64,000 nt of DNA from Actinoplanes subtropicus (GTDB lineage: Bacteria > Actinomycetota > Actinomycetes > Mycobacteriales > Micromonosporaceae): contig NZ_JOJL01000021.1 in the NCBI RefSeq assembly GCF_000721705.1, positions 443,181 through 507,180 of the forward strand. The letters run 5' to 3'. Position numbers and translations under genes: made by a program. Numbering within the stretch: position 1 is the first letter of the stretch; the number at the start of each line of letters is the position of its first letter. Shown piece after piece: positions 55,030 through 60,730 of this stretch. The notes under the pieces were generated by a model. The model had not been told where the DNA came from. It did no database searches and saw nothing but the letters and a program-made list of their open reading frames with translations.

Positions 55030-55772
55030 TGGACATCCAGGTACGCGTCTGGCGCCAGTCTTCCAGCGAAGACGACGGCCGCATGGTCACGTACGACGTG
55101 ACGGACATCTCCCCCGACGCTTCCTTCCTGGAGATGCTCGACGTCCTGAACGAGAAGCTGATCCTCGACGGCGACGACCCGGTCGCGTTCGACCATGACT
55201 GCCGCGAGGGCATCTGCGGCATGTGCAGCATGGTCATCGACGGCGTGGCGCACGGCCCCGAGCGGGCCACCACCACCTGCCAGCTGCACATGCGGCACTT
55301 CAAGGACGGCGACGTGATCGACGTCGAGCCGTGGCGGGCCGCCGCCTTCCCGGTCATCAAGGACCTGGTGGTCGACCGGTCCGCGTTCGACAAGATCATC
55401 CAGGCCGGCGGCTACATCACCGCCCCGACCGGCGCGGCGCCCGAGGCGCACGCCACCCCGGTGCCCAAGAAGGACGCCGACCTGGCGTTCGAGGCGGCCA
55501 CCTGCATCGGCTGCGGCGCCTGCGTCGCGGCCTGCCCGAACGGCTCGGCCATGCTGTTCACCGCGGCCAAGGTCGCCCACCTGGGCCTCATGCCGCAGGG
55601 CCAGCCGGAGCGCGACTCCCGGGTGATCGACATGCTCCAGGCGCAGGACGACGCCGGCTTCGGCGGCTGCACCAACGCCGGCGAGTGCACCACGGTCTGC
55701 CCCAAGGGCATCCCGCTGACCCTGATCGGTCGCCTCAACAGCGACTACCGCAAGGCACTGCGCAACCGCTGA
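55029..55772 (+). CDS. sdhB: Succinate dehydrogenase iron-sulfur subunit
   Basis: SdhB passes electrons from FAD to quinone through three Fe-S clusters. The 247-residue product has the [2Fe-2S] ligands in [11 protein letters not shown] and the two ferredoxin-type motifs [14 protein letters not shown] and [14 protein letters not shown]. It starts at ATG 55029, overlapping the sdhA stop by 1 bp. A 13-bp hairpin immediately downstream closes the operon. Confidence 0.95.
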
Positions 55773-55776
55773 GGCT

Positions 55777-55808
55777 CCGGGCCGGGCACAATGGCGTGCC
55801 CGGCCCGG
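55777..55808 (+). terminator. Terminator of the sdhCAB operon
   Basis: CCGGGCCGGGCAC (55777-55789) and GTGCCCGGCCCGG (55796-55808) form a perfect 13-bp stem with a 6-base loop, 4 bp after the sdhB stop. Confidence 0.9.
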
Positions 55809-55841
55809 CATCGAGCGCTACGAACGGTCAATCTCACCGAT

Positions 55842-55869
55842 TTGATCCGGGCTGCCGAGTCGCTATCAT
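55842..55869 (+). promoter_or_regulatory. Promoter of the caspase-EAL gene
   Basis: TTGATC (55842-55847), 16-bp spacer, TATCAT (55864-55869) is a good vegetative sigma-factor promoter. Transcription would start near 55876. The leader then contains a hairpin AGCCCTC/GAGGGCT (about 55889-55909) close to the ribosome binding site. Confidence 0.68.
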
Positions 55870-55924
55870 CGCTTGGCGCCTTCGACAGCCCTCACTACCG
55901 AGGGCTCGATCCCGGGGACAGTCG

Positions 55925-58123
55925 GTGACAGACAAGCGCTACGCGGTAGTGGTCGGGGTCGACGATCCCGCCATCCGCGCTGCCCTGCCCCCGCTGCGAT
56001 ACGCGGCCCGCGACGCCGAGTGCGTCCGCGACCTGCTCTGCGACCCCGCGATCGGCACCTTCGACCCGGCCGACGTCGAGCTGTTCGCCGGGCCGTATAC
56101 CAGCGCCGCCGCGGTCAAGACGGCGCTGCGCCGGATAGCGCTGCACTCCGACCCGTCCGACACGCTGCTGGTCTACTTCGCCGGCCACACGCTGACCCCG
56201 GCCTGGAGCCTCGGCAACGACTTCTACCTGGTCACCCCCGACCTCGACGAGGCGGCGCTGGGCGACGACCCCGACGCCGGCCTGCGGCTGTCCTACCTGC
56301 ATCAGGACGTGCTGGAGCTGTTCGCCGGCGCGGCCACCCTGATCCTCGACTGCTGCCGCTCGGGCAGCCTGCTCGGCCGGCACCGCGACCCGATCGGCGT
56401 GGGCGGCCGGTATTCGGCGCTCACCGTGTCCGCCCGGGACGGCGCCGCCCGGGAGGACCCGTCGCTCGGTCACGGCGTGCTCACCCACCACCTGCTGGCG
56501 GGGCTGCGCGGCGCGGCCGCCGATTCCACCGGCCGGGTGACCTTCGAGACGCTGAGCCGGTACGTGCTGGAGCGCGGCCTCGACCCGGAGCCCACCGCGA
56601 TCGTCCAGGACTGGGCCACCACCACGGCGCTGACCAGTTCCGGCCCCGAGCTGATCATCACGACCCCGCTCCCGGTGCAGCGCGTGCCCGAGCAGGTCGA
56701 GGTGCTGCCCCTGGAAAACCCGATCGACCGGCACGCCACCGCGATCGCGGGCCTGATCGATCGGCTGTCCCGGGCCGCCCGCGAGCCCCGGCTCTCCGGC
56801 ACGATGCTGCGCGCCGACCGCGTGCACTACCTGCGCGCCGCGACCGGCGCCGAGTCGGTGGCCCTGCTGGAGTACACGGCGACCGGCATCACCACGATCG
56901 ACGCCACCGCCCGCTTCGACCAGGCCTCGGTGCAGGACCTGCTGCACTTCACCGACGACCCGTCGAGCCTCGAGTGGTTCGGCCGCATCTTCCGCGACAC
57001 CAGCCGCACCCTGCTGTGCGTCCCGGTCAGCCGCAGCGACGGCACGGTGCTGCTGCTCGCCGTGGTCGACCCGCCCCAGGCCCTGGTCGCGATGGGCCAG
57101 CCGATGGCCAAGGTGATCGAGACGATCTGGCGCACCGACTTCGCGGCCTCCCCCGCCGAGGCCGAGATCCAGGTGCTGACCGCGCTGCGCGAGACGTTCG
57201 GCCGGCTGCCCAACCCGCTCTACGAGCGCTGCTTCCGCCTCTACCGCGAGGTGCTGGAGTCGTTCCGCATAGTCTTCCAGCCGGTCGTCACGATCGGCCC
57301 CGCGGTCGCGAATGTCGGCGTGCACAGCTACGAGGCGCTGGCCCGCCGCTCGCTCGACGAGACCCGCGCGCCGGTCGCGATGCTGCAGATCGCCCGCATC
57401 TGGGGCGACCGCTTCGTGGTCGAGCGGGACAAGGTCATCCTCCGCACGGCGCTGCGCTCCTACGCCGAGGCCAACGCCGCCGGCCCGTGGGACGAGCCGA
57501 AGCCGGTCTCGGTCAACGTCTCGGTCCGGGCGTTGCTCAACGACTCGTACGTGGAGACCCTGCGGGTCGCGATCGCCGAGGCCGGCCTCACCCCCTCGGC
57601 CGTGACCCTGGAGATCTCCGAGCAGGACCCGATCGAGCCGCGCGACGGCGAGCAGTGGCCGGACGAGCCGCACGCGTACTTCCACAAGCGCCTGGCCGCG
57701 ATCGCCCGCGACGTCGGCGTGGCCTTCGCGGTCGACGACTTCGGCACCGGTTACGCCTCGCTCTCCCGGATGGCCGAGCTCCCGCTGACCCAGATCAAGG
57801 TCGACCGCGCGATCCTGCACCACCCCCAGGCGCTGCAGGAACTCTCCCTGGTCGTGTCGGTCGCCCGCGACGCCTCGCACACCCCGCGCGTGGTGATCGT
57901 CGAGGGCGTCGACGACGAGTCCCCCCTGACCCTGCGCCAGATCTTCGAACGCAAGATCAAGCACGTCCAGGGCTACATCACCCGCGAGCCGGCCGCCCCC
58001 CGCCTGCGCCGCCTACGCCCCGAGGCACGCAAGGAAATAGCCGCCCGCGTCCGAGGCGACGACGGCCACCGCCCCTCCCGCCTCTCTGGCGAGGACGTCT
58101 TCCCCCTCCAGCGCGGCGCATAA
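55925..58123 (+). CDS. Caspase-like protease fused to a c-di-GMP phosphodiesterase (EAL) domain
   Basis: The 732-residue cytosolic product has three parts. Residues 1-250 are a caspase-fold (peptidase C14) domain with the dyad His88 in YFAGH and Cys143/Cys144 in ILDCCRSGS. Residues about 290-405 form a GAF-like region. Residues about 435-690 are an EAL domain in which all residues needed for c-di-GMP hydrolysis in RocR-type enzymes are present: E470 (EAL), N531, E563, D604, D605, K625, E660 and Q682, with near-identical spacing apart from an 11-residue insertion before the DDFGTG motif. No GGDEF domain or membrane segment is present. GTG 55925 is the start. Linking proteolysis to c-di-GMP turnover in one chain is unusual. 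The function is unknown. Confidence 0.88.
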   Translation: MTDKRYAVVVGVDDPAIRAALPPLRYAARDAECVRDLLCDPAIGTFDPADVELFAGPYTSAAAVKTALRRIALHSDPSDTLLVYFAGHTLTPAWSLGNDFYLVTPDLDEAALGDDPDAGLRLSYLHQDVLELFAGAATLILDCCRSGSLLGRHRDPIGVGGRYSALTVSARDGAAREDPSLGHGVLTHHLLAGLRGAAADSTGRVTFETLSRYVLERGLDPEPTAIVQDWATTTALTSSGPELIITTPLPVQRVPEQVEVLPLENPIDRHATAIAGLIDRLSRAAREPRLSGTMLRADRVHYLRAATGAESVALLEYTATGITTIDATARFDQASVQDLLHFTDDPSSLEWFGRIFRDTSRTLLCVPVSRSDGTVLLLAVVDPPQALVAMGQPMAKVIETIWRTDFAASPAEAEIQVLTALRETFGRLPNPLYERCFRLYREVLESFRIVFQPVVTIGPAVANVGVHSYEALARRSLDETRAPVAMLQIARIWGDRFVVERDKVILRTALRSYAEANAAGPWDEPKPVSVNVSVRALLNDSYVETLRVAIAEAGLTPSAVTLEISEQDPIEPRDGEQWPDEPHAYFHKRLAAIARDVGVAFAVDDFGTGYASLSRMAELPLTQIKVDRAILHHPQALQELSLVVSVARDASHTPRVVIVEGVDDESPLTLRQIFERKIKHVQGYITREPAAPRLRRLRPEARKEIAARVRGDDGHRPSRLSGEDVFPLQRGA

Positions 58124-58164
58124 CTCCGATCAACTTCAAAATCCCTTGACCGTACGCGTGGGCC

Positions 58165-58232
58165 AAGTCCCCGGTGCGGCGCCGATCGCCGTCGTTGGTC
58201 ACCCTCCGCGCGCGGCCGCCGGGCTGTCCTGC
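58165..58232. repeat. Dispersed repeat, copy A
   Basis: A 68-bp sequence beginning AAGTCCCCGGTGCGGCGCC and ending CCGCCGGGCTGTCC recurs at 63333-63400. The last 27 bp are identical in both copies. Each copy lies about 40 bp after a plus-strand stop codon, which fits a shared 3' element or small dispersed repeat. Confidence 0.8.
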
Positions 58233-58280
58233 ATGGTTAGCGCCCTTCCCGCCGCCCGGCGCACCCCATCGTGCGGCACA

Positions 58281-58310
58281 TTGTCAATTTATCGTTGACA
58301 ACGGTAGGAT
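58281..58310 (+). promoter_or_regulatory. Promoter with palindromic operator for the HTH gene
   Basis: TTGTCA (58281-58286), 18 bp, TAGGAT (58305-58310) is a plausible promoter ending 7 bp before the GTG start. Over it lies the inverted repeat TTGTCAA-N7-TTGACAA (58281-58301), a possible operator. Confidence 0.72.
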
Positions 58311-58317
58311 CTGAGTC

Positions 58318-58803
58318 GTGGCCGACCTCAGCGCGCTCCGGGCGATTCCCGCCGAGCGGGCGCGGCTGGACGCCCGAGAGCTGGCGCTGATCGACCAGGC
58401 CCGGCGGGAGGGCGCCACCTGGGTGCAGGTCGCCGAGGCGCTGGGGCTGGGCAGTCGCCAGGCTGCCGAGCAGCGCCGCCTCCGTTTGACCGCCGCCGTG
58501 CACCCGGTCTCCCCGTCGCTCGATCGCGGCTTGGGCGCGGAGGTGACAGCCCTGCGCACCGCCGCCGCCGACCTGCACCGCCGGATCGGGGCCGACCGCC
58601 GCTGGGACCGCCGCTTCACCCGAGCCGCCCTGGTCCGCCAGACCCTCGCCGCCGCCCCCGACACCCCCGTCTCGGCCCTGTATGCGCTGGTCACCGAGGC
58701 CGTGGCCGACCTCGCCACGGCCAGTGCGCCGCTGCCCGGGCCGACCCGGGCGGCCGTTGCTCGGCTGGTCGCTGCTCTGGAGGCCGCCACTCCGCAGACT
58801 TGA
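58318..58803 (+). CDS. Helix-turn-helix protein
   Basis: The 161-residue product has a helix-turn-helix resembling sigma region 4 or a MerR-like segment (IDQARREGATWVQVAEALGLGSRQAAEQRRLRL) followed by an Ala-rich helical part. It is not a full sigma factor. GTG 58318 is preceded at 7 bp by TAGGAT, so the mRNA is probably leaderless. It is a likely regulator of the MFS gene that follows; the function is unknown. Confidence 0.78.
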   Translation: MADLSALRAIPAERARLDARELALIDQARREGATWVQVAEALGLGSRQAAEQRRLRLTAAVHPVSPSLDRGLGAEVTALRTAAADLHRRIGADRRWDRRFTRAALVRQTLAAAPDTPVSALYALVTEAVADLATASAPLPGPTRAAVARLVAALEAATPQT

Positions 58804-58866
58804 CAGATTGCCGCTCAACTCTTGAGGATGAGTCCCGTTGACTCAACCCCTCGGGAGGTCGGTGCC

Positions 58867-60285
58867 GTGCGCCGGAACGCGTTGCTGTTCGTGCTGATCT
58901 CCCTCTTGTCGGGGCTGGGCAGCACCGCGATGAGCCTCGCCGCCGGCATCTGGGTGCTGGACCTGACCGGTTCGGTCGGGCTGGCCGCCCTGACCGGCCT
59001 GTGCATCTACGCCCCTACGCTGGCGGCGCCGTGGCTGGGCGCCGTGGTGGATCGCCTGCCGCGCCGACCGTTGCTGATCGCGGTCGATGCCGTCATGGGC
59101 CTGTTGATCCTGACCCTGCTGCTGGTCTCGTCCCGGGATTCGGCCTGGCTGATCTACGCGGTATTGCTGGCCCGAGGCGTGGGCTATGTCCTGGGGGACG
59201 CCGGCGAGTCGGCGATCCTCCCGTCCGCCCTGCCCGCCGAGCTGCTGGGCGACGTCAACGGCTGGCGGTCGAGCGCCCAGGAGGGCATGAAGATCGTGGC
59301 CCCGCTCCTGGGCGCCGGCCTCTACGCCTGGCGAGGCCCCACCCTGGTGGTCCTGATCTGCGCCGGGCTCCCCCTGTGCACGGCGGCGTGCTACGCCCTC
59401 ATCCGCCTGCCGTCCGACTGCGACCCGCCCGCGGTCAACGCCGAGGCGGACCCACCGCGGGCGGCCGCACGGTCGAATCGTGGCGAGGCACGGGCCGGGC
59501 GACGAGCCGACCGGCGGAGTCGTGGCGAGGCGCGGGCGGGGCAACGAGCCGACCGGCGGAGTCGTGGCGAGGCGCTGGCGGGGCAACGAGCCGACCGGTC
59601 GAGTCGTGGCGAGGCGCGGCCGGGGCGACGAGCCGACCGGCGGAGTCGCGCCGAGGCGCGGGCGGGGCGACGAGCCGACTGGTTGAGCCGTGGCGAGGTG
59701 CGGGCCGGGCTGCGGGCGCTCTTCGGTAATCCGGCCGTGCGCGGACCGGTCCTCGTCGCCGCCGGCGCTATCGGGCTGTCGGGGCTGGTCAACGCGGCCG
59801 TCATCGGGCAGGTCGTGGACGGGCTGCACCTGCCCGCCACCCGACTCGGGCCGCTCTCGACCGCGCAGGGCGTCGGCTCGATCGTCGGCGGGCTCGTGGT
59901 CGGGCGGTTGCTCGCCCGCCGCTCCCCGCTCGCCGTGGCCGCCCTGGGGACGACGCTCTTCGCGGCCGCCTGCGCCTGCTCGGCGATTCCGTGGTGGCCT
60001 GCGATGATCGCCGGCCGGGTGCTTGCCGGCTTCGGGCTGGTGCCGGCCCTGATCGCGGGTGTGACGGCGGTGCAGACCCGCACCCCCGACCACCTGCTGG
60101 GCCGGGTCTCCGCCACCTCGAACACCGTCATGTTCGGCCCGGCCGCGGTCACGATCCCGCTCGGTTCGGCCCTGGTCCACTGGGGACCGACCCCACTCTT
60201 CCTCATCACCGCCGCGCTGGCCGTCGCCGCCGCCCGCTACCGCCCCCGATCGACGGCCGCCGAGCCAAGCCCGGCGGTCCCCTAA
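58867..60285 (+). CDS. MFS transporter with a tandem-repeat cytoplasmic loop
   Basis: The 472-residue product is a twelve-helix MFS protein. Between helices 6 and 7 lies an insertion of about six 14-residue repeats (RGEARAGRRADRRS type, residues about 200-280), Arg-rich and hydrophilic. GTG 58867 is preferred because GGGAGG is 8 bp upstream; an ATG at 58828 falls inside a possible -10 (TTGACA 58800-58805, N17/18, GAGGAT). The substrate is unknown. Confidence 0.85.
   Translation: MRRNALLFVLISLLSGLGSTAMSLAAGIWVLDLTGSVGLAALTGLCIYAPTLAAPWLGAVVDRLPRRPLLIAVDAVMGLLILTLLLVSSRDSAWLIYAVLLARGVGYVLGDAGESAILPSALPAELLGDVNGWRSSAQEGMKIVAPLLGAGLYAWRGPTLVVLICAGLPLCTAACYALIRLPSDCDPPAVNAEADPPRAAARSNRGEARAGRRADRRSRGEARAGQRADRRSRGEALAGQRADRSSRGEARPGRRADRRSRAEARAGRRADWLSRGEVRAGLRALFGNPAVRGPVLVAAGAIGLSGLVNAAVIGQVVDGLHLPATRLGPLSTAQGVGSIVGGLVVGRLLARRSPLAVAALGTTLFAAACACSAIPWWPAMIAGRVLAGFGLVPALIAGVTAVQTRTPDHLLGRVSATSNTVMFGPAAVTIPLGSALVHWGPTPLFLITAALAVAAARYRPRSTAAEPSPAVP
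59480..59731 (+). repeat. 42-bp in-frame tandem repeat in the MFS gene
   Basis: Units beginning GTGGCGAGG start at 59480, 59522, 59564, 59606, 59648 (GCGCCGAGG) and 59690, a strict 42-bp period, encoding 14-residue Arg/Ala/Asp repeats in the central loop. The period keeps the reading frame. Confidence 0.93.
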
Positions 60286-60730
60286 ACCACCCAGGCCAGT
60301 GACCACGAGTCCAGCCCAGCCCGGCCGGCCCGGCGATCCCGAGCCCAGCCCCACCCGGCCCAGCCCGGCCCGGCGATCACGAGCCCAGCCCCACCCGGCC
60401 CGGCCCGGCCCGGCCCGGCGATCACGAGCCCAGCCCCACCCGGCCCAGCCCGGCCCGGCGATCACGGGCCCCGCCCAGCCCGACCATCCCAGCCCAACCC
60501 CGCCCAGCGAGCCCGAGTCCAGCCCAACCCCGCCCAACCCAGCGATCCCCAGCACCGTCCGGCGAGTGCCGCCACCGTCCACAAGCTACGGTGCGGGCGG
60601 CGATAGATCGTTATTCGGTTGTCCGGGGTGGAGCGCGAACCTACCGTGGTCCGTGACACAGCCGATCGATGAAAGACGCGGTGGGCTGGCCGGACAACTT
60701 CTATTTCATCTGTAGGGGAGGTGGGCCACG
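60286..60730. repeat. Repeat-rich gap before the HNH gene
   Basis: Imperfect 40- to 45-bp units beginning GATCACGAGCCCAGCCCC start near 60335, 60375, 60420 and 60460. The sequence then becomes less biased (about 60590-60730) and ends in the HNH ribosome binding site GGGGAGG. No gene is visible. Confidence 0.8.

Follow-up and report, generated by a model that had tools for sequence, protein, structure and literature searches.

A caspase-EAL fusion gene of Actinoplanes subtropicus and the coupled retention of the protease site and a small partner gene among its relatives

The soil actinomycete Actinoplanes subtropicus encodes a single chain of 732 amino acid residues that joins a metacaspase-like N-terminus, a GAF-like middle part and an EAL domain at the C-terminus. 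In the relatives of this gene the protease site is kept together with a small downstream partner gene, and the caspase domain evolves faster where the partner is absent, whereas the EAL site is intact in either case. On balance, we consider it probable that the family is a two-gene system of partner, protease and EAL enzyme, and that the copy in the window (the whole stretch of 64,000 nucleotides analysed here) now works mainly as a phosphodiesterase with a relaxed protease half. The new element is this natural dissection, in which partner and protease go together and the effector stays.

The fusion gene and its two active sites

The gene lies at 55925..58123 on the forward strand (+), as do all features of the chain given below, and starts with GTG. 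A promoter-like site, TTGATC-16-TATCAT (55842..55869, +), and a possible ribosome-binding site read from the sequence, GGGGA (55914..55918, +), 6 nt 5' of the GTG, precede it. The earlier note had given the gene a promoter of its own; the site found is a match to the consensus and hence a candidate, and the region 55700-58420 holds 2 promoter-like sites compared with a mean of 0.1 in shuffled sequences. The metacaspase-like domain covers residues ~4-243 (55934..56653) and is followed by a disordered linker (residues 244-265, 56654..56719; pLDDT<50 at 244-260), a GAF-like domain with weak to moderate structural support (268-405, 56726..57139), a helical connector (410-446, 57152..57262) and the EAL phosphodiesterase domain (447-710, 57263..58054). 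In the GAF-like region Pfam gave no match above cut-off. A structure search with the full-length model returned mostly EAL matches, with a caspase first listed at rank 50. An alignment of 108 rows was made from 121 proteins and consists of the query and 107 homologues of 640-800 residues. Since these homologues are collinear with the query over the whole chain, two separate genes or a frameshift could be ruled out, and the earlier claim of three domains in one chain was confirmed.

The window protein has the caspase fold of the C14 peptidases, which removes the doubt that residues 1-250 might lack it. When the single caspase-domain sequence was searched against the PDB, nothing relevant was found; a profile of the domain matched Arabidopsis metacaspase-4. 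The caspase fold, the histidine and the D-x-C motif are common to both proteins, but the family adds a long C-terminal GAF-EAL extension and is often catalytically dead in its partner-less lineages. The catalytic dyad had been assigned to His88 and Cys143. His88 (56186..56188) was upheld by its alignment with the SGH histidine of metacaspase-4. The catalytic cysteine is probably Cys144 (56354..56356) rather than Cys143, because D142-C143-C144-R-S-G fits the metacaspase motif D-x-C-H-S-G; the D-x-C motif is also present in other caspases of the same genome. His88 and Cys144 are both present in the window protein. Among the 108 aligned proteins His88 is kept in 91, Cys143 in 95 and Cys144 in 92. 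The pair of His88 and Cys144 is found in 84/108, so the dyad is lost in 24/108.

In the EAL domain the residues E470, N531, E563, E566, D604, D605, K625, E660 and Q682 are invariant in 108/108 aligned full-length proteins, and the catalytic residues were intact in 45/45 locus rows checked, a set in which L065 duplicates L157 and to which L185 does not belong. The complete RocR-type residue set claimed before was thus borne out, and from its metal and catalytic residues the window domain is predicted to be a competent phosphodiesterase. Fold and all catalytic residues are shared with the phosphodiesterases of the RocR and PdeA type; the window protein differs from these by its N-terminal caspase and by the conserved 11-residue insertion before DDFGTG that the earlier note had described. 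The distance from E563 to D604 is 41 in the window protein, and in RocR the equivalent spacing is shorter by the 11 residues. The family-specific insertion region (residues 567-581, DPIEPRDGEQWPDEP, 57623..57667) has a constant length in 43/43 proteins, and D568, I570, E576 and W578 within it are invariant in 108/108. With this constant length, a confident model and the invariant residues, a disruption of the metal site by the insertion was ruled out.

On a tree of the 108 rows from which the caspase columns were left out, the dyad needs 13 changes, of which 12 are forced by well-supported branches. Given these repeated changes and the invariant EAL residues, the protease site is prone to loss, unlike the EAL site.

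Coupled retention of the partner gene and the protease site

Neighbours were sought in regions of at most about 20 kb surrounding 44 relatives and a second copy in the own genome. In many relatives a gene of about 108 codons follows directly behind the caspase-EAL gene on the same strand. Of the 15 partner genes called, 10 overlap the caspase-EAL gene by 4 bp and 4 by more, and 1 lies behind a decayed copy. An HMM of the partner matched 3' of the caspase gene at 22 of the 43 full-length loci and, in addition, beside the truncated L189 and the decayed L164. A survey of 354 genomes from the taxonomic family of the window found the partner in 25: in 24 it adjoins a caspase-EAL gene, which is full-length in 22 and broken in 2, and in one it is a fragment of 41 residues (G143, L259). 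Since 24/25 occurrences adjoin a caspase-EAL gene, the partner is tied to this family. In the window its expected site is 58124..58317, and an HMM search in six frames of positions 40001-64000 gave no match, so the statement that the gene has no obvious partner holds at this locus. Partner absence refers here and below to the family-specific partner only. A replacement of the partner by another downstream gene was rejected as well: among frames of 70-200 residues starting between 60 nt before and 150 nt after the stop, none in 22 partner-less loci matched the partner models (best E 0.19). These candidates are, as we take it from reading them, unrelated acetyltransferase- and glyoxalase-like genes.

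When the 43 full-length loci were sorted by the partner, the dyad was intact in 22/22 with the partner; without it, the dyad was intact in 5/21 (the window protein, L145, L165, L169 and L185) and lost in 16/21. Fisher's test gave p 7.7e-8, with L185 included and kinship ignored. The dyad was scored with Cys144, by which L159 counts as lost; for L185, visual inspection showed that the partner is absent and that H and C are there, and the protein row was taken from P0103. Since the dyad is retained wherever a full-length locus keeps the partner, partner and protease appear to be selected together. Outside the 43 loci stand L163 and L189, where the caspase domain is absent, and the decayed L164. 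In L164 and L189 the partner persists next to a caspase-EAL gene that is broken, so it can survive the protease for some time.

Because the genomes are related, only a few independent changes underlie this pattern. The 22 loci with the partner comprise 18 of genus g23, 3 of the window's genus and 1 of g13; the 21 without it comprise 16 of the window's genus, 4 of g7 and 1 of g23. The 43-row tree requires 4 or more changes for the partner and 3 for the dyad; the latter count was made with Cys143 and is taken to stand because L159 groups with L161 and L162. An independent-pairs test gave p 0.25-1 with few pairs and is under-powered; the opposite direction was never observed. The absence of the partner is read as loss, because copies with the partner fall on either side of the midpoint root, although the tree itself does not separate loss from gain.

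The rate of evolution proved a stronger test than the paired tree test. With a fixed topology the ratio of caspase to EAL branch lengths was 0.99 with the partner and 2.22 without it, whereas the GAF-like/EAL control stayed at 1.45 and 1.53, respectively. Counted in parsimony steps, the caspase/EAL ratio without the partner exceeded that with the partner 1.88-fold (column bootstrap 1.57-2.25), and the GAF-like/EAL control was 1.03 (0.85-1.24). The lineage as the only cause of the fast caspase evolution was ruled out by ratios within genera. In the window's genus the partner-keeping tips L146, L147 and L160 had caspase/EAL ratios of 1.46, 1.01 and 0.98, the large partner-less clade had 4.13 and the window pair 3.59. 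In g23 the sole partner-less genome (L185) had 1.81, compared with 0.96 and 1.05 in two partner-bearing groups. The relaxation was weakest in the g7 clade, with 1.65 within the clade and 0.73 on its stem.

We asked which explanation accounts best for these data. The family might consist of ordinary phosphodiesterases whose caspase fold serves only as a scaffold for regulation or dimerisation, with proteolysis never having mattered and no tie to conflict systems. This would agree with the 12 or more dyad changes forced by supported branches and with the EAL site being always intact, and the 48 matches to the EAL model in the own genome allow for a plain housekeeping output. However, where the partner is present the dyad is kept in every case and the caspase domain evolves about as slowly as the EAL domain, which requires selection on the protease. 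We therefore regard this explanation as unlikely.

The window protein itself shows the signs expected of a phosphodiesterase with a declining protease half, namely no partner, a shortened loop and a drifting caspase domain. Between the window protein and L145, its counterpart in the nearest genome, 22/241 caspase positions differ compared with 7/266 EAL positions (Fisher p 0.0019). The stretch of the p20/p10 loop has 20-24 residues in proteins with a partner, 15 in the window protein and 6-10 in 11/16 dead proteins. Counted over a linker stretch, Lys and Arg number 2-5 in 22/22 proteins with the partner and 0-2 in 21/21 without it, with 1 in the window protein. Nevertheless, the caspase dN/dS of the window pair is 0.19, from which we conclude that the fold is still maintained. 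In lineages with a dead protease, too, pairwise caspase dN/dS is <0.3, which indicates that some function still preserves the domain.

With its dyad intact, the window protein may still be a live protease, which speaks against the preferred reading of a relaxed protease half. It could be a working protease-phosphodiesterase that is independent of a partner or uses the partner of a second locus in trans. The own genome has such a locus: in the second copy, L164 (G000:C3:190000-209900), the caspase is mostly missing and a stop interrupts the EAL part, and an intact open partner gene lies behind it at G000:C3:198886-199203. But the nearest genome, G057 (94% identity), has an intact dyad and no match to the partner model, and the closest homologue among the best 120 of 154 listed, P0002 at 93%, carries H88Q. 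The loop of the window protein is also shorter than in any protein with a partner, and we consider a working protease of this kind quite improbable.

The EAL domain shows no such drift. Its dN/dS was 0.03-0.19 in 9 pairs without the partner and 0.05-0.15 in 8 pairs with it; it is equally constrained after the protease is lost. That the EAL domain is selected with or without the partner agrees with a protease acting in the service of the EAL output; it does not agree with an EAL sensor working for the protease. Several partner-less lineages thus form a natural experiment in which the protease site is gone in 16/21 and the effector is intact. On evolutionary evidence alone, partner and protease seem to form a single unit that is dispensable to the EAL enzyme, with the EAL enzyme as the output, and the pattern suggests that the two control it.

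For comparison, in the LapD-LapG pair a LapD protein with a degenerate EAL domain controls the separate cysteine protease LapG. The window fusion likewise brings together an EAL protein and a cysteine protease, but LapD differs in its degenerate EAL site and in having its protease on a separate chain, and the active site of the window EAL domain is complete. A c-di-GMP-gated protease, in which the EAL domain would sense c-di-GMP by binding it or turning it over and would control the caspase in the way that LapD controls LapG, was one of the mechanisms of the earlier note and is suggested by the fusion of both domains in one chain and by the ability of EAL domains to act as receptors, but it is very unlikely, because the catalytic and not only the binding residues of the EAL site are invariant in all aligned proteins while the dyad is repeatedly lost, and the EAL constraint does not relax even where the protease is dead.

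Relation to EACC1-caspase systems and proposed mode of action

The nearest known type is the EACC1-caspase system, described as a two-gene conflict system (System 4) in passages of Kaur et al. 2020 (PMC7159879), where EACC1 is the 5' gene. The same passages suggest that EACC1 activates the caspase and that the caspase deploys its effector by self-cleavage. These systems were predicted from genomics, and the papers found that name both EACC1 and caspase are genomic surveys, judged by their abstracts and passages. A term search of the main text of PMC7159879 did not find EAL named as an effector, and among titles and abstract starts of the literature matches listed, none concerned a caspase-EAL fusion.

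The best curated NCBIfam match of the window caspase domain is NF047832, 'caspase, EACC1-associated type', with 90.9 bits (E 7.6e-26), which is below the cut-off of 140 bits. Eight other family members tested scored 39-100 bits, the 7 with an intact dyad 75-100, and two EACC1-paired caspases used as controls scored 165.6 and 166.7. In PADLOC the sole match was the generic 'caspase' model. When the C-terminal half of the partner was compared with 30 canonical EACC1 sequences, hhalign gave a probability of 59 and the reversed-sequence control 0.6; the peak hydropathy is similar (1.5-2.0 in the partner, 1.5-2.3 in EACC1). PF19953 matched 2/15 partners below its cut-off (best E 0.0085), and an unrelated family scored equally well in 3/15. 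Therefore we name the partner EACC1-like only, and its homology to EACC1 is putative. The nearest caspase family, NF047832, supports the link independently.

The family shares with EACC1-caspase systems a nearest-type N-terminal caspase, a variable C-terminal effector, here the EAL domain fused behind the caspase, and its actinobacterial host range. A small adjacent partner with a similar C-terminal half is found in relatives of the window gene. On the other hand, the family caspases score below the NF047832 cut-off, the partner is sub-cut-off for PF19953 and lies 3' where EACC1 is the 5' gene, which also counts against the preferred reading, and the window locus has no adjacent EACC1. Since the window gene lacks both the NF047832 score and the adjacent EACC1, we do not call it a member. 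We would class the family as a derived form of the EACC1-caspase kind, one with a predicted c-di-GMP-destroying effector, and it would work like such a system.

EACC1 was also sought elsewhere. Among the 14 other caspases matched in the 354 genomes, 6 are immediately preceded by a canonical EACC1 gene in the same orientation; L251, where a weak EACC1 match lies on the opposite strand, was left out of the 6. The scan used frames of at least 60 residues, below which the 41-residue G143 fragment falls. In the own genome none of 4 caspases found by Pfam had EACC1 within 1.5 kb on either side (0/4), and PF19953 gave no match there, as in 14 control genomes. Some partner-less genomes (G077, G079, G081) carry canonical EACC1 genes elsewhere, which might stand in for the partner.

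In a scan of 10 other caspases, TIR, TPR, Roadblock or amylase domains were seen in some. L246 and L248 are caspase-TIR fusions among the other caspases matched, with no EACC1 match adjoining. Separately, L254 (G277:C2, 1155-3791), of the same taxonomic family, is a caspase fused to an alpha-amylase/maltogenic amylase domain by Pfam.

In the mode of action that we propose, the N-terminus of the larger protein would be an EACC1-type metacaspase-like protease and its effector the GAF-like/EAL phosphodiesterase, and the small EACC1-like partner would be needed for the protease to be useful. The partner would sense a threat or the state of the envelope and then switch on the caspase. The caspase would cut its own chain, probably in the long basic p20/p10 loop and in the disordered, basic linker that leads to the GAF-like domain. 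This would release or activate the GAF-EAL half, so that c-di-GMP falls and the developmental programme shifts. In the window lineage, with the partner gone from the locus, the protein would work as a c-di-GMP phosphodiesterase that has kept its catalytic residues under relaxed selection on the protease. A passage of PMC8325347 describes that c-di-GMP with BldD restrains development in Streptomyces; because of this brake, lower c-di-GMP would favour sporulation, and a conflict-type protease may be bridged here to c-di-GMP signalling. As a tentative extension, which we hold to be possible but doubtful, the partner-activated caspase would use c-di-GMP destruction to turn a threat signal into a developmental decision such as sporulation and not into death, and several lineages would have taken the protein over as a plain phosphodiesterase by losing first the partner and then the protease. 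Of the three mechanisms in the earlier note, a protease-regulated phosphodiesterase fits best, given the co-retention of partner and protease and the always intact EAL site, and defence sensing through c-di-GMP runs in the direction opposite to the one the evidence suggests. Its link to defence or cell death stood as far as kinship to conflict-system caspases goes, by the NF047832 match and the EACC1-like partner in relatives; the defence role itself is conjectural. Since c-di-GMP hydrolysis is easily measured, the family offers a simple assay for such a system.

Spread of the family and neighbourhood of the gene

When the domain pair was mapped in protein databases, as the earlier note had suggested, 154 homologues were found at E<=1e-5 among the 7991 candidates sharing most words. 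The best 120 of these that were listed include the genera Actinoplanes, Paractinoplanes, Mangrovihabitans, Micromonospora and Asanoa. When the 354 genomes were searched with residues 1-440, matches at E<=1e-10 were found in 54; by our reading of the match table, 43 have a full-length member (the window's included), 2 a truncated one (G053, G334) and 9 other caspases only. Among 61 genomes drawn from the order, the 55 of other families contained no family member; weak matches in G369 and G408 cover the caspase part only. A contig scan listed mainly generic EAL proteins and at least one family member, L065, which is the same place as L157 and was dropped as a duplicate. The family is lineage-restricted and the fusion uncommon.

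The neighbourhood of the gene was compared over three genes on each side with G057, and only two downstream genes are common, the small gene at 58318-58803 and an MFS gene. The succinate dehydrogenase neighbours of the window gene were thereby ruled out as partners. An inverted repeat, TTGTCAA-7-TTGACAA (58281-58301), overlaps a promoter-like site before the small gene, whose product may be a regulator that has an operator of its own. Inside the MFS transporter gene (58822-60285) a 42-bp unit is repeated 5.5 times in tandem at 59478-59710 (88% matches), which adds an Arg/Ala-rich repeat of about ADRRSRGEARAGRR to the protein. A further GC-rich tandem array lies just beyond the MFS gene at 60311-60543, with overlapping descriptions as 3.4-4.5 copies of 40-45-bp units.
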